This document shows, piece after piece, positions 51,330 through 64,000 of a stretch of 64,000 nt of DNA. The stretch spans positions 248,001 to 312,000 of the forward strand of contig NZ_JACVAM010000003.1 of the NCBI RefSeq assembly GCF_014851865.1, given 5' to 3'. Both the position numbers and the translations under genes were made by a program. The stretch is from Pseudomonas sp. PDM16 (GTDB lineage Bacteria > Pseudomonadota > Gammaproteobacteria > Pseudomonadales > Pseudomonadaceae). Below the pieces are notes generated by a model. The model searched no databases and had not been told where the DNA came from. It saw nothing but the letters and a program-made list of their open reading frames with translations. How positions within the stretch are numbered: position 1 is the stretch's first letter; each line of letters starts with the position of its first letter.

Positions 51330-52265
51330 TCAACGCGCTATAGGCACGGATTCGGTGATATCGAGTCTGCGTGGCAGCAGCCGATTCTCGAAGAACAGAT
51401 CGGCAGTCTTCTGCTGAGCCTCCACGATCTCGACGGTAACCGGGCCGATCAGCGACGGCGGACGGTGGCTGAAAGCCCGCGCGATCACCACCTGGCTGAG
51501 GCCGGTGACCTTGGCCAGCACTGCGATGCTGGCGGCCTCGTCGCTGCGGGTGAGCGCTTCGGCACGGTTCAGCTCGGCGAGCAGTTCGGGGAGGAACTGT
51601 GGGTTGGCCTCGGCAAATGGCCGGGCGGCCAGCACGAAGGGCCCGCTCAGGCCGAGACCCTCACCATTGGCCAGCAGGCGTGCGCGGCCTTCCAGCTCGA
51701 TGGCCGAGTAGAACGGATCCCAGATCGCCCAGGCGTCCACGGCGCCACGCTCGAAGGCGGCGCGGGCGTCGGCTGGTGGCAGGTAGATCGGCTGGATGTC
51801 GGCGAACGTCAAACCTTCACGGGCCAGCGCACGCAGCACCAGGTTGTGCGCGCTGGAGCCCTTCTGCAGCGCCACGCGCTTGCCCTTGAGCTCGGCCACC
51901 GACTGCAGCGGGCTGTCCTTGGCCACCAGGATCACCTCGGCCTGCGGCTTGGGCGGCTCGGCGCCGATGTACAGCAGGTCGGCGCCGGCGGCCTGGGCGA
52001 ACAGCGGCGGGATATCGCCGGTGGAGCCGACATCCAGGCTGCCGATATTCAGCGCCTCGAGCATCTGCGGCCCGGCGGGAAACTCAATCCACTGCACGCG
52101 CACATCGGGGAAGCGCTGCTCCAGCATGCCGTGCTCCTTGGCCAGCACCAGGCTGGTGGAGCCCTTCTGGAAGCCGATGCGCAATACCTCGGGGTCGGCC
52201 GCACGGGCCAGGCCGGAGAAGGCCAGCAGCGCCAGCAAGGCGGCGCCGAATCGAATGCTGTTCAT
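51330..52265 (-). CDS. Aliphatic-sulfonate ABC transporter substrate-binding protein, SsuA type
   Basis: 311 residues from the ATG at 52265; GGGAG, overlapping the preceding gene's stop, serves it. Signal peptide ends near LARA-AD. SsuA/TauA fold: LRIGFQKGSTSLVLAKEHGMLE, GSLDVGSTGDIPPLFAQAAGADL and AVDAWAIWDPFYSAIE. It captures sulfonates or related organosulfur in the periplasm. No permease or ATPase gene is adjacent, so it must use a transporter encoded elsewhere. Last gene of the minus-strand monooxygenase/reductase series, 2 bp after the aldo/keto reductase stop. Confidence 0.9.
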   Translation of the reverse strand: MNSIRFGAALLALLAFSGLARAADPEVLRIGFQKGSTSLVLAKEHGMLEQRFPDVRVQWIEFPAGPQMLEALNIGSLDVGSTGDIPPLFAQAAGADLLYIGAEPPKPQAEVILVAKDSPLQSVAELKGKRVALQKGSSAHNLVLRALAREGLTFADIQPIYLPPADARAAFERGAVDAWAIWDPFYSAIELEGRARLLANGEGLGLSGPFVLAARPFAEANPQFLPELLAELNRAEALTRSDEAASIAVLAKVTGLSQVVIARAFSHRPPSLIGPVTVEIVEAQQKTADLFFENRLLPRRLDITESVPIAR

Positions 52266-52267
52266 GC

Positions 52268-53308
52268 TCACTCCCAGTCGGTGGACGGTTTTTCCCAGAG
52301 GTTGATGCCGCCCTCCACCGCATGGCGGTCGATCTCGGCCAGTTCCTCGGCGCTGAAGGCCAGGTTGTCCAGCGCGGCGACGTTCTCGATGATCTGCGCA
52401 GGATTGCTGGCGCCGATCAGCGCCGAGCTGACTCGCGTATTGCGCAGGGTCCAGGCCAGCGCCAGTTGCGCCAGGCTCTGCCCACGGCGCGCGGCGATCT
52501 CGTTGAGCGCGCGGGCGCGGGCGATGTTGGCTTCGGACAGATGCTCAGGGCGCAGCGAGGCACCGCCCGGGCGGTTGACCCTCGCGTCCTGCGGGATGCC
52601 ATTGAGGTACTTGTCGCTGAGCAGGCCCTGGGCCAGCGCGGTGAACACGATGACGCCGGCGCCCAGCTCGTCGGTGGTGTCGAGCAGGTCCTTCTCGATC
52701 CAGCGGTTGAACAGGTTGTAGGCCGGCTGGTGAATCAGCAGCGGCACCTTCAGCTCGCGCAGCAGCGCGGCGATCTCGCGGGTCTTGCCCGCCGAGTAGG
52801 AGGAGATGCCGACATACAGCGCCTTGCCCTGGCGGACGATGTCGGCCAGGGCGATGGCGGTCTCCTCCAGCGGCGTGTCGGCGTCGAAGCGGTGCGAGTA
52901 GAAGATGTCCACGTAGTCCAGGCCCAGGCGCTGCAGGCTCTGGTCGAGGCTGGAGATCAGGTATTTGCGCGAGCTGCCGCCCTGCCCGTACGGCCCCGGC
53001 CACATGTCCCAGCCAGCCTTGGTCGAGATGATCAGCTCGTCGCGGTGGGCCTTGAAGTCTTCCTGCAGCAGGCGACCGAAGTTGCTTTCGGCACTGCCAT
53101 AGGGCGGGCCGTAGTTGTTGGCCAGGTCGAAGTGGGTGATGCCCAGGTCGAAGGCGGTGCGCAGCAGCGCGCGCTGGGTGTCGATCGGCGTGGCGTCGCC
53201 GAAGTTGTGCCACAGGCCCAGGGACAGGGCCGGCAGCAGCAGGCCGCTGCGACCGACACGGCGATAGGGAATGCGTTGGTAGCGGTTGGCGGCGGGGATG
53301 TAGCTCAT
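52268..53308 (-). CDS. Aldo/keto reductase, YghZ/MgrA type
   Basis: 346 residues. Catalytic residues: Asp and Tyr in FDLANNYGPPYGSAE, Lys in IISTKAGWDMWPG, His in DIFYSHRFD. The length and the MSYIPAANRYQ start match the Kv-beta-like YghZ family, which reduces glyceraldehyde-3-phosphate and small aldehydes with NADPH. The ribosome site is AAGGAG. Lying between a flavin monooxygenase and a sulfonate-binding protein, it may reduce the aldehyde left after C-S cleavage. Confidence 0.93.
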   Translation of the reverse strand: MSYIPAANRYQRIPYRRVGRSGLLLPALSLGLWHNFGDATPIDTQRALLRTAFDLGITHFDLANNYGPPYGSAESNFGRLLQEDFKAHRDELIISTKAGWDMWPGPYGQGGSSRKYLISSLDQSLQRLGLDYVDIFYSHRFDADTPLEETAIALADIVRQGKALYVGISSYSAGKTREIAALLRELKVPLLIHQPAYNLFNRWIEKDLLDTTDELGAGVIVFTALAQGLLSDKYLNGIPQDARVNRPGGASLRPEHLSEANIARARALNEIAARRGQSLAQLALAWTLRNTRVSSALIGASNPAQIIENVAALDNLAFSAEELAEIDRHAVEGGINLWEKPSTDWE

Positions 53309-53362: not shown

Positions 53363-54691
53363 TCAGGTGAAGAAGGGATTGCGCGGATATGGCAAACCAA
53401 GGTGCTCGCGTAGGGTGCGGCCACGGTATTCCGTACGGAACAGGCCACGCCGTTGCAGCTCGGGCACCACCTGGGTGGCGACGTCTTCCAGGCCCAGCGG
53501 CAGGTGTGGCACCAGCACGTTGAAACCGTCGGCGCCACGGCCCTCGAACCAGGCCTGCAGCTCGTCGGCGATCTGCGTCGGCGTACCGATCAGGCTGTGG
53601 TGGCCACGCCCACCGGCGATGCGCCGGCCGAGCTGGGCCAGGGTCAGCTGCTCGCTGCCGGCCAGTTCGGTGAGCAGCTTCTGCCGGCTCTGCTGGCCGT
53701 TCTCGGTCAGCGGCAGTTCCGGCAACGGGCCGTCCAGCGGGTAGCCGGACAGGTCGAAGTTGCCGAGCATGCGTCCGAGCAGGGCCACGCCCACTTCCGG
53801 CTCGACCAGCTCCTGGAACTGCTCGAACTTCTCGCGGGCCTCGGCCTCGCTGGCGCCGACCACGATGAACACGCCGGGCATGATCTTCAGTTCGTCCTCG
53901 CCGCGCCCGTACTTGGCCAGGCGGCCCTTGAGGTCGGCGTAGAAGGCCTGGGCCTTGGCCAGCGAGGTTTGCGCGGTGAACACCACCTCGGCGGTTTCGG
54001 CGGCCAGCTCGCGGCCGGTCTCCGAGGAACCGGCCTGCACCACCACCGGCCGGCCCTGGGGCGAGCGGGCGACGTTGAGCGGACCCTGCACGCGGAAGTG
54101 CTCGCCGTGGTGATTCAACACCTTCAGCTTGGCCGGGTCGTAGAACTGGCCGCTGGCCTGGTCGTGGACGAAGGCGTCGTCCGCCCAGCTGTCCCACAGG
54201 CCGCGCACCACCTGGTGGAATTCACGGGCCCGCGAGTAGCGTTCGGCATGCGGGATGTGCGCGTCGCGGCCGAAGTTGAAGGCCTCGGCGGCGGCGTCCG
54301 AGGTCACCAGATTCCAGCCGGCGCGGCCACCGGAGAGGTGGTCCAGCGAGGCGAACTTGCGCGCCACGTGGTACGGCTCGTTGTAGCTGGTGGTCACCGT
54401 GCTCACCAGGCCGATGCGCTCGGTGATGGCGGACAGCGCCGAGAGCAGGGTCAGCGGCTCGAAGTACACCGAGCGCGAGGTGTGACTGGCGATGGCATCG
54501 GTGGACGCGGCGACGCTATCGGCGACGAACAGCGCATCGAACTTGGCCGCCTCGGCGATCTGCGCAGCGCGGCGGTACTGGCCGAAGTCCAGCGGGTTGG
54601 CCACCACGTCCGGGTGGCGCCAGGCGGCGATGTGGTGGCCGCCGGCCATGAGGAAGGCGCCGAGGCTGAGTTGACGGGGAGAATCGCTCAT
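53363..54691 (-). CDS. FMN-dependent monooxygenase of the NtaA/SnaA/DszA (LLM) family
   Basis: 442 residues of the bacterial luciferase-like fold. Motifs: FLMAGGHHIAAWRHPDV, FDALFVADSV, ITERIGLVSTVTTSYNEPYHVARKFASLDHLSGGRAGWNLVTS and GRPVVVQAGSSETGRELAA. Family members oxidise NTA, dibenzothiophene sulfone, or sulfur compounds with FMNH2 from a separate reductase. No flavin reductase gene is next to it. The context of a sulfonate-binding protein suggests an organosulfur substrate. Confidence 0.93.
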   Translation of the reverse strand: MSDSPRQLSLGAFLMAGGHHIAAWRHPDVVANPLDFGQYRRAAQIAEAAKFDALFVADSVAASTDAIASHTSRSVYFEPLTLLSALSAITERIGLVSTVTTSYNEPYHVARKFASLDHLSGGRAGWNLVTSDAAAEAFNFGRDAHIPHAERYSRAREFHQVVRGLWDSWADDAFVHDQASGQFYDPAKLKVLNHHGEHFRVQGPLNVARSPQGRPVVVQAGSSETGRELAAETAEVVFTAQTSLAKAQAFYADLKGRLAKYGRGEDELKIMPGVFIVVGASEAEAREKFEQFQELVEPEVGVALLGRMLGNFDLSGYPLDGPLPELPLTENGQQSRQKLLTELAGSEQLTLAQLGRRIAGGRGHHSLIGTPTQIADELQAWFEGRGADGFNVLVPHLPLGLEDVATQVVPELQRRGLFRTEYRGRTLREHLGLPYPRNPFFT

Positions 54692-54772: not shown

Positions 54773-56989
54773 TCAGAAGTCCTTGCGCAGCTGCACGCCG
54801 AAGTAGCGCTGGTCGTCACGCGGCACCGCGCGGTAGATGTAGCTGCCACCGCTGGCCAGGGCCTGGGAGTAGGACTTGTCGGCCAGGTTCTTGCCGAGCA
54901 GGGCCACGCGCCAGCCGTCGTTGTAGTCGGCCAGGGCGATGCTGGCGTTCCAGATGCCGTAGGCGCCCTGCACCGTGTCCGGGTTCTGGTCGAGGCTGAA
55001 CTGCACCTCGTCCTGCCAGCTGTAATCGGTGCTCAGCTCCACATCCAGGCCGTTGTCCAGCGGGATGCTGTAGTCGGCGCGCACGTAGCTCTTCCAGTCC
55101 GGGGTGAACGGCAGGCGGCCGCCGTCGATATCGCAGGTGGCTGCGGCGCCCACCGGGCAGTTGAAGTGGTCGACGCGCGCCTTGGTGTAGGCCAGCGAGG
55201 CCGAGAACTTGAGCTGGCTGGTGGCCTGCAGGCTGGCATCCAGCTCGACGCCCTGGGTCTTCACGCTGCCGGCGTTGATCAGGCGGGTCACCACCTGGTT
55301 GGCCACGGTGTCGAAGAAGTTGGCCTGGTAGTCGTCGTAGTCGGTGTGGAACACGGCCAGGTTGGCGGTCAGGCGGTTGTTCCAGGCCGTGCTCTTGAGG
55401 CCCACCTCGTAGGAGTCGGAGGTCTCCGGCTTGAGCGCCTCGGTGTCGCGCGGCTGCATGTTGAAGAAGGTGTTGTAGGCCGGGCCCTTGTAGCCGCGCG
55501 AGTAGGTCACGTAGCCGGTGAGGTTGTCGGTGAAGTCGTACTGCAGGCCGGTGCGACCGCTGAAGCCGTCTTCATCCACCGAGCCGGAGCTGCTGGTCGA
55601 CGGCTGGATGCCGGTGACCGCGGTGGCCGAGGTGGACACCCGGCGATGGTCGTATTCCAGGTCGTCGTGGGTCCAGCGCAGGCCGAGCAGCGCGCGGAAG
55701 TCGTCGGTGAAGTTGAAGGTGTTCTCGCCGAACAGCGCCACGCTGTCGTTGGTCACGCTGTAGTCGGCGCGGCCGTGGTTGAGCACGCCGGCGTTGGTCG
55801 ACCAGCGCTGGTAGATCTCGTCGGACTTGCCGTGGAAGTAGTAGGCGCCGAGCACGTACTCGTTGAACTCGCCCTTGGGCGAGGTCAGGCGAAACTCCTG
55901 CGAGTACTGGTCGTAGTCCACCTCGCCCTTGTCGTGGGAAGCGGTCAGTGGCAGCTGGGCGCTGCGGTCGCCGTCCTGGTACTGGGTGTTGTCCCAGCCG
56001 CGCCAGGCGGTGATCGAGGTCAGGGTGAAGTCGCCCAGCTGCCAGTCGGCCTGGCCGGACAGGCCGGTGTTGGTGTCCTCGACGTGGGTCTTGTAGTCGC
56101 TGTTGATCTTGCGGTTGTGAGCGCTCACCGCCACCGGGCGCAGTACATTGGCGAAGGCCGCGCCGCTGGAGCTGATCACCCCGCTGGGCAGGGTGTCCTC
56201 GCCATCCATGTAGTCGCCGATCAGGGTGAATTTGAAGTCCTCGTTCGGCTCGAACTCCAGCTTGCCGCGCACGCCCTTGCGCTCGTAGCCGTTGACGTCG
56301 TGGCCGTTGTAGACGTTCTCGACGTTGCCGTCGTAGTCGCCCCACAGGGTGCTCAGCGAGCCCTTGAGGGTGTCGGTCAGGCGCCCGCCGATACCGAAGC
56401 GCAGGCGGTTCTCGTTGCCGCCGCCGAAGTGCGAGTAGTCGACGTAGCCGCTGGTCTCTTCCGGCGCATCCTTGCTGACCACGTTGAGCACACCGGCCGA
56501 GGCGTTCTTGCCGAACAGGGTGCCTTGCGGGCCGCGCAGCACTTCGATGCGCTGCAGGTCGAGCAGGTCCAGGGTGGACTGGCCCGGACGGCCGAACACA
56601 ACGCCGTCGACCACGGTGGCCACGGTCGGCTCTACGCCCGGCGAGGTGGAGATGGTGCCCACGCCGCGGATGAACAGCGAGGTGTCCTTGTTCGAGGCGC
56701 CGGCGCGGTAGTTCAGCGTCGGTACCTCCTGGACGATGGCGGCGACGTTGTTGCGGTTGCCGCGCTCGAGCTGCTCGCCGTCGATCACCGACACCGCCAC
56801 CGGCACTTCCTGCAGCGAAGCCTCGCGGCGGGTGGCGGTCACTGTCACGGTACCGAGGGTAGTGGCCTGCTCGGTGGTGGGCGCCTCGGCGGCGAACGCA
56901 GGCTGGCCGAGCACGGCCAGCAACACGGCACTGGCCAGCGGCGTGCGGCGCAGGCGGAATGGGGAAACCTGGGAATTCTCGATATGCAT
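54773..56989 (-). CDS. TonB-dependent outer-membrane receptor
   Basis: 738 residues. Signal peptide ends near AFAAEA; a TonB-box-like TVTVTA precedes the plug (VPVAVSVIDGEQLERGNRNN, RGVGTISTSPGVEPTVATVVDGVVFGRPG, LDLLDLQRIEVLRGPQGTLFGKNASAGVLNVVSK). The barrel ends RYFGVQLRKDF with the terminal Phe needed for assembly. There is no signalling domain. It is divergent from a LacI-family repressor and its promoter carries a perfect operator. The substrate is probably an organic, possibly sulfonated or sugar-derived, molecule rather than a siderophore. Confidence 0.94.
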   Translation of the reverse strand: MHIENSQVSPFRLRRTPLASAVLLAVLGQPAFAAEAPTTEQATTLGTVTVTATRREASLQEVPVAVSVIDGEQLERGNRNNVAAIVQEVPTLNYRAGASNKDTSLFIRGVGTISTSPGVEPTVATVVDGVVFGRPGQSTLDLLDLQRIEVLRGPQGTLFGKNASAGVLNVVSKDAPEETSGYVDYSHFGGGNENRLRFGIGGRLTDTLKGSLSTLWGDYDGNVENVYNGHDVNGYERKGVRGKLEFEPNEDFKFTLIGDYMDGEDTLPSGVISSSGAAFANVLRPVAVSAHNRKINSDYKTHVEDTNTGLSGQADWQLGDFTLTSITAWRGWDNTQYQDGDRSAQLPLTASHDKGEVDYDQYSQEFRLTSPKGEFNEYVLGAYYFHGKSDEIYQRWSTNAGVLNHGRADYSVTNDSVALFGENTFNFTDDFRALLGLRWTHDDLEYDHRRVSTSATAVTGIQPSTSSSGSVDEDGFSGRTGLQYDFTDNLTGYVTYSRGYKGPAYNTFFNMQPRDTEALKPETSDSYEVGLKSTAWNNRLTANLAVFHTDYDDYQANFFDTVANQVVTRLINAGSVKTQGVELDASLQATSQLKFSASLAYTKARVDHFNCPVGAAATCDIDGGRLPFTPDWKSYVRADYSIPLDNGLDVELSTDYSWQDEVQFSLDQNPDTVQGAYGIWNASIALADYNDGWRVALLGKNLADKSYSQALASGGSYIYRAVPRDDQRYFGVQLRKDF

Positions 56990-57103
56990 CTACTTCTCTG
57001 CCCTGTTGAACCAGACGGAGCCCGCTATGGGGCCTTTCTCGGTCGCCGTAACCGGTCTGGTCTCGCTCGTGCGAGTGGCAGTGAAGGTCGGCGCATGAGC
57101 GCT

Positions 57104-57117
57104 TGTTAGCGCTAACA
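57104..57117. promoter_or_regulatory. Operator 1 (perfect 14-bp palindrome) at the TonB receptor start site
   Basis: TGTTAGCGCTAACA, a LacI/GntR-type operator. It begins 6 bp downstream of the receptor's -10, so it covers the expected transcription start. Confidence 0.85.
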
Positions 57118-57122
57118 TCGCC

Positions 57123-57152
57123 AGTATCAAAGCGAACCTAATAGATCGTCAA
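57123..57152 (-). promoter_or_regulatory. Candidate promoter of the TonB receptor operon
   Basis: On the minus strand -35 TTGACG (57147-57152) and -10 GATACT (57123-57128) at 18 bp, in AT-rich DNA, immediately upstream of operator 1. Confidence 0.6.
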
Positions 57153-57212
57153 ATAATTAAAAATTACTTTTATATTCCATAAATGAAATTTCCTGAGTCC
57201 GCCACGCAAGTA

Positions 57213-57230
57213 TTTGTTAGCGCTAACAAA
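57213..57230. promoter_or_regulatory. Operator 2 (18-bp palindrome, same core) on the repressor promoter
   Basis: TTTGTTAGCGCTAACAAA, with the identical 14-bp core at 57215-57228. It overlaps the -35 (TTGTTA, 57214-57219) of a plus-strand promoter whose -10 is TATGGT (57236-57241) at 16 bp. The arrangement predicts autorepression. The two operator centres are 111 bp apart, which would permit looping. Confidence 0.85.
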
Positions 57231-57269
57231 TGCAGTATGGTGATCCGCTTTCGTAGCTGAAATGGACTC

Positions 57270-58325
57270 GTGGTCGCCGTGAGCAGCAACAAGGAATCCC
57301 CGCGCAAACGCCGTGGTGCAGGACGCGTCACCCTCAACCAGGTGGCCAGCCATGCCGGCGTTTCGGCGATCAGCGTGTCGCGTTTCTTCAACCAGCCGGA
57401 ACAGGTGTCCGGCGAGTTGCGCGAGCGCATCCAGGCGGCGGTGACCGAACTCGGCTACGTGCCCAACCTGGTGGCCGGCGGCCTGGCGTCGGCGCGCGGG
57501 CGCATCGTCGGCATGGTCATCCCGAACATCTCCGGGCCGATCTTCGCCGCCACCATCCAGGGCTTCAGCGACACCCTGGCCAAGCACGGCTACCAGCTGC
57601 TGCTGGCCTCCAGTTACTTTTCCGAGGAGCAGGAAGAAAGCGCCGTGCGCGCCTTCCTCGGCTGGTCGCCGGCGGCGCTGGTGGTCACCAGCCACTTCCA
57701 CAGCGCCGGCACCGAAAAGATGCTGGCCGACGCCGACATCCCGGTGGTGGAGATCTGGGACTACTGCCCCGAACGCGCGCCGCTGCAGGTCGGCTTCCTG
57801 CATTACGAGGTGGGCGTGACCGCCACCCGCCATCTGCTGCAGCAGGGTTACCAGCGCATCGCCTTCGTGCAGAACAGCGCCGCCGGCGACCTCAGCGCCC
57901 TGGAGCGCCGCGACGGCTATGCCGCCACCCTGCGCGAAGCCGGGCTGGAACCCTGGGTGTTCGTGCCCACGGCCGACGCCAAGCCGTTCGAGGCCGGCAA
58001 GCAGGCGATGGACGCATTGATGAAGCGCAGCCCGCGCCCGGACGCCATCGTCTTCGCCAACGACAACCTGGCCGCCGGCGCCCTGCTCGCCGGCCAGCGC
58101 GCCGGCCTGAAGATTCCCGAGGACTGCGCAGTGATCGGCTTCGGCGACTACCCCTTCGCCGAGATGCTGCTGCCCAGCCTGACCACCGTGCGCCCACCGG
58201 CCCGCGAGATCGGCGAGATCGCCGCCCTGCGCGTGCTGCAGAGCCTTGGCGCAGTGGAAGCGGACGGCGAACCGCAGCGCCTGAATCTGCTGCAATTCAC
58301 GCTGGTGGTCAGGGAAAGCGCCTGA
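57270..58325 (+). CDS. LacI-family transcriptional repressor, GntR-like
   Basis: 351 residues from a GTG at 57270; another GTG three codons later is possible. The N-terminal basic tail and helix-turn-helix (GRVTLNQVASHAGVSAISVSRFFNQPEQVSGELR) and hinge helix (NLVAGGLASARG) are followed by the periplasmic-binding-like sensor domain (IVGMVIPNISGPIFAATIQGFSDTL). The close resemblance is to gluconate repressors, so the inducer may be a sugar acid or related compound. It should bind both palindromes in the intergenic region. Confidence 0.92.
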   Translation: MVAVSSNKESPRKRRGAGRVTLNQVASHAGVSAISVSRFFNQPEQVSGELRERIQAAVTELGYVPNLVAGGLASARGRIVGMVIPNISGPIFAATIQGFSDTLAKHGYQLLLASSYFSEEQEESAVRAFLGWSPAALVVTSHFHSAGTEKMLADADIPVVEIWDYCPERAPLQVGFLHYEVGVTATRHLLQQGYQRIAFVQNSAAGDLSALERRDGYAATLREAGLEPWVFVPTADAKPFEAGKQAMDALMKRSPRPDAIVFANDNLAAGALLAGQRAGLKIPEDCAVIGFGDYPFAEMLLPSLTTVRPPAREIGEIAALRVLQSLGAVEADGEPQRLNLLQFTLVVRESA

Positions 58326-58437: not shown

Positions 58438-59616
58438 ATGCACCCCAGTACCCTGCTCTCCCTACCCCTGCTGGCCCTCGCTCTCGGCGGCTTCGTCGTC
58501 GGCAGCAGCGAATTCATCATCATGGGCCTGCTGCCCGAAGTCGCCGCCGACCTGGGCGTGAGCCTGGCCGACGCCGGCCTGCTGGTCAGCGCCTATGCCA
58601 TGGGCGTGGTGATCGGTGCGCCGCTGCTCGGCCCGCTGCTCGGCCGTCTGCCACGTAAGCAGGCGCTGCTGTGGCTGATGGGGGCTTACTCGCTCGGCAA
58701 CCTCGGCTGCGCACTCGCGCCCGACTACGCCTGGCTACTGGCGATGCGCATGCTCACCGCCATCAGCCACGCCGGCTTCTTCGGCTGCGCCACCCTGCTC
58801 GCGGCAGAACTGGCACCGCTGCACCGGCGCGCCTCGGCCATGGCCCTGGTGCTCAGCGGCCTGACCATCGCCAACGTGCTCGGCGTGCCACTGGGCGCCT
58901 GGCTGGGCCAGGCCACCAGTTGGCGCATGACCTTCTTCGCCGTCGCCGGCTTCGGTGTGTTCGCCCTGCTCGCCCAGGCTCTGTGGCTACCGCGCACACC
59001 GGTGCCGCCACGCGGCGAAGCCGGTGCCTGGAGCGGCATCCTGCGGCGTCCGGTGCTGCATGCCCTGCTGGTCTGCTGTCTGTCGTCGGTGGCGCTGTTC
59101 GGCGTGTTCACCTACATCAGCCCGCTGCTGCGCGATGTCGGCGGCTTCAGCGCCTCACACAGCAACGGCGCACTGCTGCTGTTCGGCATAGGCCTGACCC
59201 TCGGCAACCTGCTCGGCGGCCGCCTGGCCGACAAGGGCTTCCGCTTCGCCCTGCCGATGGCCTTCGCCGCCAGCACGCTGTGTCTACTCGGCCTGTATCT
59301 GTTCATGGATGTGGCGCCGGCGGCGCTGGCATTCCTGTTCGTCTGGGGCGTGGCCAGCTTCGCCATTTCCTCGCCACTGCAGCTGCTGCTGGTGGAACAG
59401 GCCGGCGAATCCGCCAGCCTGGCCGCCACCCTCAGCCACGCCGCCTTCAACCTCGGCAACGCCAGCGGTGCCTACTTCGGCGGCCTGTGGCTGAGCGTCA
59501 ACCTCGGCCTGGCCAACCTGCCGCTGCTGGGTGTGGGCCTGCTGGCGATGGTCATTCTGGTCAGCCTGCCATTGCCGCGACTACAAGCTGCGCGGGAGCG
59601 ATTCGAGCGTCGATGA
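58438..59616 (+). CDS. MFS transporter, DHA1 (AraJ/YdhP-like) family
   Basis: 392 residues with 12 membrane segments. Motif A-type sequence is GAPLLGPLLGRLPRKQALL, and the N-terminal GGFVVGSSEFIIMGLLPEVAADLG is typical of sugar-efflux/arabinose-polymer exporters. It could export a product or excess sugar. Its separation from the repressor by a candidate promoter leaves co-regulation uncertain. About 80 bp after its stop lies the stop codon of the opposing autotransporter gene. Confidence 0.92.
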   Translation: MHPSTLLSLPLLALALGGFVVGSSEFIIMGLLPEVAADLGVSLADAGLLVSAYAMGVVIGAPLLGPLLGRLPRKQALLWLMGAYSLGNLGCALAPDYAWLLAMRMLTAISHAGFFGCATLLAAELAPLHRRASAMALVLSGLTIANVLGVPLGAWLGQATSWRMTFFAVAGFGVFALLAQALWLPRTPVPPRGEAGAWSGILRRPVLHALLVCCLSSVALFGVFTYISPLLRDVGGFSASHSNGALLLFGIGLTLGNLLGGRLADKGFRFALPMAFAASTLCLLGLYLFMDVAPAALAFLFVWGVASFAISSPLQLLLVEQAGESASLAATLSHAAFNLGNASGAYFGGLWLSVNLGLANLPLLGVGLLAMVILVSLPLPRLQAARERFERR

Positions 59617-59694: not shown

Positions 59695-62600
59695 TCAGAA
59701 CGCGACGTTCAGCCCTAGCCGCACGCCATGGTCGCTGCCGTCGCCGAACTGGCCGGAGTACCCCAACTGCAGGCTGGCCTGGGGCGCCAGCTGCAGCCCT
59801 AGGCCAAGCTGCGCCAGGGCGCTGTCTTCGGCTACCGGCACGCCTTTGACGGTGAAGCTGTCGTAGCCGGTCAGGCTCAGGCGGCTCTCGTCGCTCGGGT
59901 CGTCGCAGGCATGCTGCCAGGCCAGGCCGGCGTGCAGCTTGAGTGGCAGGCCGGCGACATCGCCCAGCGGCGCCGCCGCGCGCAGGCCGAGGCTGGCGTA
60001 GTCGACGCTGTCAGCTTCGCTCTTGCCGCTCAGGGCACTGCTGCCGCCATGCTCGGCGAAACCGTCGCTGTCGACCTCGACGTGGGCCAGGCCGGCGAAG
60101 GGTTCCAGGGTCAGCTCGCCGAGCTGCAGGGCATAGCCCAGCTCGCCGAAGACCTGGGTGGTGTCGGCATCGTAGCTGGCCTTCACCGTCTCACGCAGAG
60201 TGCCGGCACGGACCTCGCGCTTGCTGTCCACCTCGTTCCAGGTGCGCGCCACGCCGAGGCGCAGGCTCAGTGCATCCCACTGACCGCCCAGGTAGGCGGT
60301 CAGGCTGGTGCTGTCGATATCGGCGGACGACTCGCGGCGGCTCACATCCAGGTCACTGGTGCCGTAGCCGGCGGCTAGGCCCAGGCGCCAGGTGTCGTTC
60401 AGGGGCAGGTCTAGGCCGATGAGCGTGCCGCGGCTGTCTCGATCCAGGTCGGCGACATTGCTGTTGCCATCGCTCTCGCTCCAGCCGCCGTAGCCACTGA
60501 GCCAGACCGTCAGGCCGCTGTCAGCATCGCTGTGCAGCACCCCATTGGCGGCGCCGTACTGGGCCGCGCGCAGCCGGTCGCTCACCGCCTCGCGGACCTG
60601 GCGACTGTCGTCGAACAGAGCGCCACGGGTGCTGGCATGGAGCTCGCCGGACAGGCTGTCATAGGCTACGCGCGCCTGCTCGGCGCTGAGTACTGCGATG
60701 GCATCGTGGACACCGCCCACCGCACTGGCGTCGAGCGCACCAGCTACCGCTCGCTGGTTGAAGGTCTGAGCCACGGAGGCGTAGCTGATGTCGTTGCGCA
60801 CCAGGTCCAGGTCGACGCCAATGGCTGAGTAGCTCAGCTCCGGGGTGAGGAAGGCCAGGTTGCTGCTGACGCTGCCGAAGGTGCCGCTGAGGCTGCCGGC
60901 CTGGACGATGCTATAGGCGGTGGACGGCGCCCAGCTGCCGCTACCGGCCAATACGCGCAGGGACGAGCCGCCGAGGCTGACCGCTCCGGTGGCGATCAGG
61001 CGATCGGCGCTGCCATCCGGGTTCGCCTCGATCTCCAGGGTCGAACCGGAAGCGAATGCGACATCGCCCTCCACCGTCAGGGTGCCGATGGAGCTGCCCG
61101 GCGCCAGGGTGGCGCCACTGGCAAGATCGACGTCGCCGAGGATGCGGCCGTGGCCAGCCAGCAGGGCGCCGTCGCTCACGGCCACGTCGCTGTCCAGACG
61201 GGCACTGGAGCCGGCACTACCGCCGACGATCAGGCGACCGCCCAGGACCTGGGTCGCCCCCAGGCTGCTCTGGCCATCGAGCGTCAGCGTGCTGTCGCCC
61301 TGTTTGATCAGCGAGCCGCCCCCGCTGATCGCTCCGTCGAGTATCAGGTCGTGGCTGCCGGCCAGGGTGGTCGCACCATTGAGGGTGATGGCATTGGTCA
61401 GGCGCAGGGCTCGGTTACTGCCCAGGGTTGTGCCGTTGGCGGCGGTCAGCCGACCCGTGCCCAGGGCAGCGTCGTTGCCCAGCACCAGCGTGCCGCCGTT
61501 GAGCTGCGTGCCGCCGCTGTAGCCGTTGGCAGCGTTGAGAACCAGGGTGCCGCTGTCGTACTTGCCCAGCGCACCGCTGCCGGTGAGCGAAACGTCCAAG
61601 GTCGCGGTGGTTTGCGGGTCGACCCGCACGGAGGCATTGCCCTGGGCGCCGTTGACCAGGATGAGTGCGCCTGCGGCGCCGCTCTGCAACCGGTAGCCAT
61701 CGCTGACGAACTGCAGACCGGTGGTGCGTTGAACGCCCTCGACCGTCACGGTACCGGCCGAGCCCTGGAAGACCGCGAAGCTGTCGTTCCAGGCATGGCT
61801 GCCGTTGCCGTTGACATCAGTCCAGTTGGAGGCTCTGCCGCCCCAGGTGCCGCTACCGCCGGCGATGCTGCCGTTGCCGGACGTCTGGTTGCCGTTCCAG
61901 AACAGCACCGTCGGGCTGGGTGTCGGGCCAGGCCCCGGTGGGGTAGGCAGGCTGTACAACAGGTTGACCTGGTTGCTGACGGTGGTCTGCAGCTGCAGCA
62001 GCCCGGACGCCACACCACTCGGCAGGCTGCCGAACGACAGGCCGTGGTTGGTCAGGTTGCCGGAGTAGTCGATCAGCCGGTACACGCCGAGGCCGAAGCC
62101 ACCGACATCGCTGACATTGAGCTTGCCATCGAGGGTGAGATCACCGTTCACATCGAGCAGTGCCGTGGTAGAGGGCGCGCCGAGGCCGGCATCGAAGTTC
62201 GAGTCGGCATTCAGTACCAGCGAGCCGACCGATAGCGTGCTGCCCGAGATGAGCGCCAAGTGGCCGCCGTCGGCAACGGTCACAGTGCCGTCGATATTGC
62301 CCGAGCCGGCCAGGGCCGCATCGCTGGCCACCTCGACATCGCTTTCCAGGCTGGCGATGCTGCCAGGTGTGCTGCCGACGACCAGGGCGCCAGCGCTGAC
62401 GCGGGTCCCCATCTGCACAAGAGAATCACCGTTGAGTTCCAGGGTACCGGTGCCCAGTTTGTCCAGGATGCCACCGCTTATGACGTTGCCGTCGAAGGTG
62501 CTGCCGGTATCGTCGCCGCCTACCGAGACGGTGTAGCCAACACCGACAGTCAGAGTGCCTTCTCCGCTCAAGCCGTTGAACCCGTTACTGCCTGCGATGT

Positions 62601-64000
62601 AGGCGGTGGCTCCGCTAGCAATGTTGAGATTGGACTGGGTCAGCACGTTGTCGCCTGCCAAGGTCACGCTGCCGCCCAGCAGGTTCAGGTCACCGCTGAA
62701 GGTATTGGTGCCTGATAGCGACAGGCCATAGGTGCCGTTCTTGGTCAGGCTACCGTTACCAGCTAGCATGCCATGAAGAGTCAGGTTCTGGTCACCGGTC
62801 AGGGTCAGTTCGGTAGCGCCGTTGATGGTGATGTCGTTGTCCAGTTCCAGCGAACTGCTGGTGTCCAGTGTGGCGTTGCCAGCGACCGTCAGTTCACCTG
62901 TGCCCAACGCGGTTTCGTGCTCGACGGTCAGGGTGCCGCCGTTCAGCGTGGTGCCGCCCTGGTAGGTGTTGGCGCCGCTGAGGGCGAGGTTACCAGTGCC
63001 GGTCTTGGTTAGCCTGCCACTGCCAGAGATGGTGTTGCCGAAGCTGGCGTCCGTGGTCTGATGGAATACCAAGCTGGCATTGTTGAGGACACCTCCAGAA
63101 CCGAGGCTGCTGACAGAGGCCGTCAAGGTACCGGCACTGATAGTGGTATTGCCGTAGGTATTGGCTCCCGTGAGAGTCAGTGTGCCGCTACCGGCTTTGG
63201 AGAGGCTCCCGGTGCCACTGATGACACCGGAGAAACTGGTGCTGGTGTTATCGCCGCCGGCAGTGAGGTTTGCGCTACCGAGACTGACCGACCCAGCACC
63301 AGCCAGAGAGCCGATGCTCTGGTCAAAACTGTTCAGATCCAGCGTGCCGCCACTACCGACCGTGAAAGCACTGCCGCCGGAGAATGCTCCGCTGTTGCCA
63401 GCCAGCATGCGTCCCCAGGCGAGCTCGGTGCTGCCGGTATAGGTACTGTTGCCGGTCAACGTCAGGGTCGCGCTGCCGGTCTTGCTCATGCTGCCGGCAC
63501 CGGTGACGGCGCCGACACCGAGGTTTTCCAAGGTCTGCAGAGTCACTGCGCTGCCGCTATTGAGCAATACACCGTCGTCCAGCGCCAGCCCGGTGTCCTC
63601 GGCGCTAATCGTGACGTTAGTGTTGTTCATCAACCAGACCACTCCATCGATGATGGAGCCGCTCTGCAGGGTCAGCGAGTTGGTGCTGCCGGCAAACTGC
63701 ACGGCGGCGCCGTCTTCGCCGTCCTCCGCGTAGGAAGTAGCCGCCAAGCCCCCGAGCCCGGCACTGATTGTGCCGGCATTGATGATGTTCAGGTTGGTGC
63801 CTGACACACCGTGGCCACCGCCGCCGCCAGCGCCTGCATATGCGCCAATGGTCCCAGTACCACCATTGCCACCATTCCCGCCGCTGATGCTACCCAGATT
63901 GGTCAGGGTGCCGTTGCTCAGGGAGGCTCCGTTGCCACCGCCGCCGCCGCCGCCGCCATGTGCTCCTGCAGAGTTACCGCCATTGCCACCATTACCGCCC
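59695..64000 (-). CDS. Very large autotransporter (type Va), 5' end beyond the window
   Basis: The frame stays open from the stop at 59695 to the window edge, about 1435 codons. The visible N-terminal part (63810-64000) is Gly/Asn-rich. Passenger-associated strand repeats (e.g. LSKAGSGTLTLTGANTY, GGTTLNGGTLTVEHETALGTG) fill the middle. A proline-rich spacer near 61920-61950 splits the passenger into two halves; the second starts with FWNGNQTSGNGSIAGGSGTW. An autotransporter adhesin-like module is followed by a beta-barrel of about 270 residues ending VRLGLNVAF. It is a surface or secreted beta-helix protein. The signal peptide is not visible. Confidence 0.9.
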   Translation of the reverse strand, partial: GGNGGNGGNSAGAHGGGGGGGGNGASLSNGTLTNLGSISGGNGGNGGTGTIGAYAGAGGGGGHGVSGTNLNIINAGTISAGLGGLAATSYAEDGEDGAAVQFAGSTNSLTLQSGSIIDGVVWLMNNTNVTISAEDTGLALDDGVLLNSGSAVTLQTLENLGVGAVTGAGSMSKTGSATLTLTGNSTYTGSTELAWGRMLAGNSGAFSGGSAFTVGSGGTLDLNSFDQSIGSLAGAGSVSLGSANLTAGGDNTSTSFSGVISGTGSLSKAGSGTLTLTGANTYGNTTISAGTLTASVSSLGSGGVLNNASLVFHQTTDASFGNTISGSGRLTKTGTGNLALSGANTYQGGTTLNGGTLTVEHETALGTGELTVAGNATLDTSSSLELDNDITINGATELTLTGDQNLTLHGMLAGNGSLTKNGTYGLSLSGTNTFSGDLNLLGGSVTLAGDNVLTQSNLNIASGATAYIAGSNGFNGLSGEGTLTVGVGYTVSVGGDDTGSTFDGNVISGGILDKLGTGTLELNGDSLVQMGTRVSAGALVVGSTPGSIASLESDVEVASDAALAGSGNIDGTVTVADGGHLALISGSTLSVGSLVLNADSNFDAGLGAPSTTALLDVNGDLTLDGKLNVSDVGGFGLGVYRLIDYSGNLTNHGLSFGSLPSGVASGLLQLQTTVSNQVNLLYSLPTPPGPGPTPSPTVLFWNGNQTSGNGSIAGGSGTWGGRASNWTDVNGNGSHAWNDSFAVFQGSAGTVTVEGVQRTTGLQFVSDGYRLQSGAAGALILVNGAQGNASVRVDPQTTATLDVSLTGSGALGKYDSGTLVLNAANGYSGGTQLNGGTLVLGNDAALGTGRLTAANGTTLGSNRALRLTNAITLNGATTLAGSHDLILDGAISGGGSLIKQGDSTLTLDGQSSLGATQVLGGRLIVGGSAGSSARLDSDVAVSDGALLAGHGRILGDVDLASGATLAPGSSIGTLTVEGDVAFASGSTLEIEANPDGSADRLIATGAVSLGGSSLRVLAGSGSWAPSTAYSIVQAGSLSGTFGSVSSNLAFLTPELSYSAIGVDLDLVRNDISYASVAQTFNQRAVAGALDASAVGGVHDAIAVLSAEQARVAYDSLSGELHASTRGALFDDSRQVREAVSDRLRAAQYGAANGVLHSDADSGLTVWLSGYGGWSESDGNSNVADLDRDSRGTLIGLDLPLNDTWRLGLAAGYGTSDLDVSRRESSADIDSTSLTAYLGGQWDALSLRLGVARTWNEVDSKREVRAGTLRETVKASYDADTTQVFGELGYALQLGELTLEPFAGLAHVEVDSDGFAEHGGSSALSGKSEADSVDYASLGLRAAAPLGDVAGLPLKLHAGLAWQHACDDPSDESRLSLTGYDSFTVKGVPVAEDSALAQLGLGLQLAPQASLQLGYSGQFGDGSDHGVRLGLNVAF

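Follow-up and report, generated by a model that had tools for sequence, protein, structure and literature searches.

The operon described here, which in Pseudomonas carries a TonB-dependent outer-membrane receptor and enzymes suited to organic sulfur compounds, is likely controlled at two levels. The best explanation of the data as a whole is that a LacI-family protein represses the organosulfur operon and that a second control, exerted through a leader RNA, governs translation of the receptor. In the 64-kb window (the whole stretch of DNA that was analyzed) the repressor gene lies at 57270–58325 on the plus strand, and the operon reads away from it on the minus strand in the order receptor, monooxygenase, aldo-keto reductase and SsuA-like binding protein. 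Taken together, the circuit is of a known kind, to which the leader adds an undescribed layer; in the literature, as far as it was available to us, we recognized no paper describing this locus or its leader.

Two copies of the palindrome TGTTAGCGCTAACA lie between the divergent genes (no strand assigned), O1 at 57104–57117, where transcription of the receptor operon is expected to begin, and O2 at 57215–57228, by the repressor promoter. As the original prediction had stated, both are perfect over 14 bp, identical and 111 bp apart, center to center. They were the sole matches to the 14-mer in the window when up to two mismatches were allowed; in 100 shuffles of the window, matches averaged 0.12, and two were reached in a single shuffle. 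No exact copy other than O1 and O2 occurs in the genome (5.09 Mb), where up to two mismatches yielded four places, these two and two others with two mismatches each, vs. seven places for the reversed pattern used as a control. One inexact place is within a thioesterase-like reading frame and the other is at the end of a reading frame, not 5′ of the adjacent sstT-like gene, and neither appeared promoter-like to us. The original prediction had called for a genome search to define the regulon, with random occurrence of the 14-mer speaking against it. Exact copies are confined to the repressor–receptor locus, and the 14-mer is therefore not scattered at random.

Comparison across relatives marks the 14-mer as the putative operator. 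In a scan of named genomes, 80 of 154 relatives were kept, all titled Pseudomonas and 76–97% identical. The LacI gene was divergent from the receptor gene in all 80 loci, and the interval between the two genes held a site with no more than two mismatches in every one of them, the receptor-side site being exact in 62, with one mismatch in 16 and with two in the remaining 2. A palindromic operator with a central CG is thus conserved together with its regulator, and the predicted arrangement, in which a LacI-type repressor diverges from a TonB receptor and an operator marks the receptor start, held throughout. The pairing of sites, on which the original prediction had remarked, is not what is conserved, as the second site was missing in 55 of the 80 loci. 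Because a site was present in every locus and a second one in only a minority (25), O1 is, on this comparison, the core conserved candidate operator and O2 an accessory site, the pair being a feature of a lineage.

The distances between the paired sites in those 25 loci were 100 bp (5 loci), 101 (1), 102 (12), 103 (1), 110 (1), 111 (4) and 180 (1). By our arithmetic, no single 10.5-bp helical phase fits spacings of 100–103, 110–111 and 180 bp. Compared with LacI, the aligned repressors (alignment A6) end without a tetramerization tail. We do not argue for a DNA loop, because the spacings share no phase and the repressors lack such a tail.

A receptor promoter-like element, TTGACG-18-GATACT, is at 57123–57152 on the minus strand (consensus match only, 9 of 12 bases). 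It ends 5 nt ahead of O1, which is why O1 would cover the expected start of receptor transcription, a predicted start that agrees with the earlier proposal. The proposed overlap of O2 with the -35 of the repressor promoter fared less well. Its position is plausible, but the element, TTGTTA-16-TATGGT at 57214–57241 on the plus strand, is a weak match (8 of 12 bases by direct reading) that fell under the cut-off of the promoter scan and is absent from its list. Upstream of the receptor -35, an AT-rich block at 57143–57178 was strongly conserved among the aligned relatives, and is possibly an activator site or an UP element. We also considered a CysB or sulfur-starvation box. The block's sequence, AAATTACTTTTATATTCC, had a single occurrence in the genome even with up to three mismatches, and so does not tie the locus to a sulfur regulon.

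The repressor has a LacI helix-turn-helix and a periplasmic-binding-like domain (PF00356 and PF13377, both above cut-off). Its best model was that of Pseudomonas GntR, NF052440, at 291.8 bits under a cut-off of 400; in a search of this genome with that model it was the only match (291.5 bits). Its predicted structure (mean pLDDT 75.3) was closest to C. violaceum GntR, 3h5o (Z 29.2, rmsd 2.6, 265 aligned, 32% identity). Many LacI-family chains were nearly as close, and for that reason no ligand was inferred from the structure. The description of the repressor as GntR-like is apt as to similarity, since this is its closest NCBIfam model, but because of the sub-cut-off score it is not a GntR equivalog. 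In the accessible portions of PMC5902321 and PMC12195362, Pseudomonas GntR, likewise of the LacI family, has sites with the AGCGCT core present here but with other flanks (AG-N2-AGCGCT-N-TCT and AC-N-AAG-N-TAGCGCT, vs. TGTT/AACA here), and no gluconate genes adjoin the repressor in the window. Gluconate, suggested earlier as a candidate inducer, is not favored, given the GntR score below cut-off and operators that have only the AGCGCT core in common.

Across 298 genomes of the genus, the LacI gene was present in 95. A search of 36 genomes at the level of the order gave three repressor matches of 39–41% identity, with no such receptor in their ~4 kb loci. The monooxygenase gene adjoined the receptor gene in 79 of the 80 loci, and the remaining locus (L023) ends at a contig edge. 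In the two nearest relatives, a second monooxygenase gene, 60–62% identical, was observed downstream of the repressor (from L005:8475 and L006:12463 onwards), followed by another receptor gene that is 31–32% identical. Behind the window's own repressor is an MFS efflux-type gene (58438–59616). It is probably outside the system, as only 9 of the 80 loci have it. Further along, a large autotransporter-like reading frame was observed at 59695–63807 on the minus strand.

The operon likely functions in organosulfur scavenging, a role we hold with good confidence based on family matches, on the sulfatase and TauD-like neighbors of receptor paralogs and on taurine and cystine genes near the cluster in two relatives. 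The receptor gene (54773–56989; PF00593, PF07715) is followed on the same minus strand by an FMN-dependent monooxygenase of the NtaA/DmoA family (53363–54691; TIGR03860, 581.5 bits, cut-off 279.7), an aldo-keto reductase of the YghZ/AKR14A type (52268–53308; NF007388, 527.1 bits, cut-off 448; 63% identical to E. coli AKR14A1) and an SsuA-like sulfonate-binding protein (51330–52271; TIGR01728, 279.1 bits, cut-off 163.5). No permease or ATPase genes adjoin the last of these in the window. The reductase is also 81% identical to a solved Xanthomonas citri protein, 9nz6, which is titled only as an oxidoreductase. Two loci were tested for such neighbors; close to the cluster, L036 has tauBCD and L079 has tauD and a gene for a cystine-binding protein.

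Receptor relatives were found in 97 of the 298 genus genomes, comprising the 95 with the repressor, one in which the receptor is at a contig end (G111) and one with a divergent cluster (G115). Six extra receptor copies occurred in five genomes, and all six loci were examined. The receptor family lies beside organosulfur genes there, as in SftP-like loci. In L171, L172 and L174, the paralogous receptor was beside TauD-like, binding-protein and aldo-keto reductase genes, L171 and L172 also having a GH3 gene, a possible sign that the sulfur compound is glycosylated; in L173, L175 and L176, it was beside sulfatase and SsuA-like binding-protein genes. The TauD-like protein scored 296.5 bits, under the taurine-dioxygenase cut-off of 313, and the sulfatase 179.2 bits, under the choline-sulfatase cut-off of 433.45. 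A LysR-type gene was near all six (confirmed by Pfam in two, L171 and L176), and these loci had neither an operator at up to two mismatches nor a leader (best 13.2 bits, E 0.48). The divergent version of the whole cluster (L170:3849–10449; repressor 61% and receptor 66% identical) retains the gene order, the operator with two mismatches and the leader (29.3 bits, E 3e-5). As L170 has both elements and the six LysR-type loci have neither, the comparison indicates that putative operator and leader travel with the LacI gene and not with the receptor family.

The stretch from O1 to the receptor AUG (57103–56990, minus strand) is highly conserved. The original prediction had recognized the operator at its edge but missed the structured leader RNA within it. 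The window's leader, which we call type A, is at 56987–57085 on the minus strand, start codon inclusive (model R1, 80.9 bits), and its predicted fold is a three-way junction of helices P1, P2 and P3 (z -2.99 and -2.97; the fold of 56985–57090 had -40.8 kcal/mol and z -2.97). In this fold the 5′ strand of P1, CUGCC (57077–57081), invariant in 22 type A rows, pairs with its 3′ strand, GGCAG (56998–57002), which is 9–13 nt before the AUG, in the ribosome-binding region. P2 is a hairpin, CUCGC-ACGA-GCGAG (57062–57075), paired in every row of both the type A and the type B alignments, and P3 is an arm, CCAGAC...GUCUGG, with an inner hairpin (57011–57060; 98.2% of type A cells paired). All of these helices are on the minus strand. 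The Shine-Dalgarno match of the receptor is poor, so the statement that P1 covers the ribosome-binding site rests on its position.

A second form of the leader, type B, was found in the P. fluorescens group and others. Its P1 and P3 differ in sequence from those of type A but follow, as we read them, in the same order, and there is an extra helix, P4. Lowest-energy folds of seven relatives had the three-way form in two and another form in five (z -1.10 to -3.63); a fold of L036:7870–8000 (z -0.32) covers mostly promoter and operator and hence is no test of the leader. RNAalifold on 41 rows recovered P2, P4 and two other pairs, and did not recover P1 and P3. A rival pairing, of the 5′ arm of P2 with the ribosome-binding region, was paired in 80.1% of cells, and the two alternative pairings may be two states of a switch. 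A conserved upstream reading frame was also considered; some type B loci could extend the receptor N-terminally in frame, but in L018 the extension is, by our reading, out of frame, and it was therefore not taken as coding.

Covariation was analyzed in aligned leaders. Alignments A1 and A2 held 52 hand-picked leaders of 97 distinct ones; alignment A3 left out as near-duplicates six A2 rows (L032, L038, L054, L059, L080 and L082) and 3 of 20 newly fetched rows (L185, L192 and L195), and had L170 added, while L197, of type A, was placed in A4, where it was aligned and not counted. In the 22 type A rows, 99.4% of cells were paired, with one change on both sides of a pair in 330 cells, a value reached by 39 of 500 shuffles; this form is too invariant for a covariation test. 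Type B did covary, with 22 both-side-change cells in 30 rows vs. 5.5 in shuffles, and 52 in 41 rows, for which shuffles gave 16.8 and sliding gave at most 8. Among them were both-side changes in seven of the eight pairs of P4 and in one pair of P2, the latter in L170, where UGGC:GCCA stands in place of UCGC:GCGA, so that both strands differ and still pair. P1 of type B had changes on one side only (89.2% of cells paired), and 82.1% of its P3 cells were paired. A conserved, covarying structure in the 5′ leader, as expected of riboswitches, was thus seen in type B, type A being too invariant to show one.

Model R1 matched 22 of the 298 genus genomes and model R2 matched 74, with one place in each genome; G106 was matched by both at the same place, giving a union of 95 genomes. 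All 22 R1 places had the repressor, receptor and operator alongside, and all 74 R2 places were on the repressor's contig, 201–1158 bp from it, start to start. The 95 leader genomes are the same set as the 95 with the LacI gene (at E ≤ 1e-140 for LacI and 1e-3 for the RNA, thresholds at which G115, the genome of L170, is outside both sets), a co-occurrence that is not independent proof of function because it partly reflects the shared ancestry of one locus. In the window's own genome, R1 gave one strong match, the next being at 18.1 bits (E 0.43). None of the 4227 covariance models of Rfam matched the leader at E up to 10, nor did any match at gathering scores across the window. Translational riboswitches and other leaders that cover the ribosome-binding site have a conserved multi-stem 5′ leader with a helix near the start codon. 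The leader here is alike in both respects, but it is at one locus per genome and has no Rfam match. A dispersed riboswitch class was rejected since the leader was found only at this locus. We consider a regulatory role for the leader fairly probable. That it senses a metabolite is a more tentative idea, and we propose with the same reserve that it is a new cis-regulatory RNA class, possibly a metabolite-sensing translational switch, acting in series with the LacI repressor.

Based on these comparisons, the repressor would be a LacI-type dimer, a relative of GntR but not GntR itself. Bound to O1, across the transcription start of the receptor operon, it would keep the operon silent until released by a sugar-like ligand, which is probably the organosulfur compound taken up or something formed from it. 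Repression at O1 with release by a sugar-like or organosulfur ligand is very likely, and is the part of the model in which we have the most confidence. Where O2 is present, the repressor would shut down its own gene too. The operon would import and desulfurize an organic sulfur compound, by way of the outer-membrane receptor and then the periplasmic SsuA-like binding protein; the flavin monooxygenase would cut the C–S bond and the reductase would handle the aldehyde released. The folded leader of the transcript would place P1 over the ribosome-binding region, and translation of the receptor is therefore probably under a second control, by a ligand, sRNA, protein or temperature. The sugar-type signal for uptake proposed originally is retained in part, in that the LacI-type sensor by itself points to a sugar-like effector, while the gene content points to organosulfur.

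A rather unlikely alternative is that the LacI operator alone matters, and that the leader is either a DNA element, another operator for instance, or a 5′ end with no role beyond stabilizing the mRNA. In favor of this, P2 forms an inverted repeat in one of the most conserved stretches of leader DNA, the type A stems show hardly any variation and the leader is tied to one locus. However, P2 has U–G in place of C–G in 4 of 22 type A rows and a U–G pair in 1 of 41 type B rows, changes that break a DNA palindrome and keep an RNA stem, and the re-formed P2 of L170 and the both-side changes in P4 also argue for an RNA.

Two further alternatives concern the substrate. The cluster could be a sulfoquinovose route like sulfo-SMO/ASMO, in which the monooxygenase would yield sulfite and 6-dehydroglucose, the reductase would form glucose and the LacI protein would sense the sulfosugar. 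This would account for a sugar-type repressor over sulfur genes, and the monooxygenase and reductase follow the logic of the pathway in the accessible part of a review (PMC12890257). We nonetheless consider it unlikely, as the monooxygenase is of the NtaA/DmoA family and scored only 59.8 bits against the SsuD model TIGR03565 (cut-off 518.2). The AKR14A-like reductase shares just 24% identity with 7bbz, an A. tumefaciens aldo-keto reductase that we take to be SmoB, and no sulfoquinovosidase gene was recognized in the window's cluster. It is most improbable that the receptor is iron- or siderophore-related and its LacI neighbor incidental. The nearest solved structures to the receptor are indeed siderophore receptors (FyuA, 77.2 bits), but it scored 164.3 bits against the siderophore-receptor model, below the cut-off of 223.5, its operon with sulfonate-type genes is conserved and its paralogs are beside sulfatase and TauD-like genes. 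Organosulfur scavenging under LacI and leader control remains the reading we prefer.

The original prediction had set direct control by a LacI-type repressor against the usual Fur or sigma/anti-sigma regulation of TonB receptors, but such control has a precedent. According to the accessible part of PMC1790865, the LacI-family SuxR of Xanthomonas represses the TonB receptor gene suxA. That sux (CUT) locus likewise has the LacI-family gene beside the receptor that it represses in an effector-dependent manner; its genes are for sucrose, whereas those here are of organosulfur type, and no leader RNA is mentioned in that portion of the paper. The main text of a survey of LacI-family regulons (PMC4052901), searched by term, contained neither "TonB" nor this 14-mer. 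The Pseudomonas sulfate-ester locus atsACBR-sftR-atsK-sftP, as given in the available part of PMC3596284, shares with the present operon a TonB receptor, an SsuA-like binding protein and oxygenolytic release of sulfur, and by gene content the loci of the receptor paralogs described above are of this type. The logic is otherwise the same, but the ats-sft locus has a LysR-type regulator and the AtsK dioxygenase, and the locus here a LacI-type regulator and an NtaA/DmoA monooxygenase.

About one third of the Pseudomonas genomes sampled have this locus, in which a carbohydrate-type repressor is coupled to apparent organosulfur scavenging, and its inducer would name an overlooked sulfur source of soil or plants. 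As the leader RNA accompanies the repressor in every one of the 95 genomes, the locus is a test case for double control of a TonB receptor. If our proposal is true, a single organosulfur uptake operon would respond through its DNA to a sugar-like inducer and through its RNA to a further signal, be it a sulfur metabolite, an sRNA or some other ligand.
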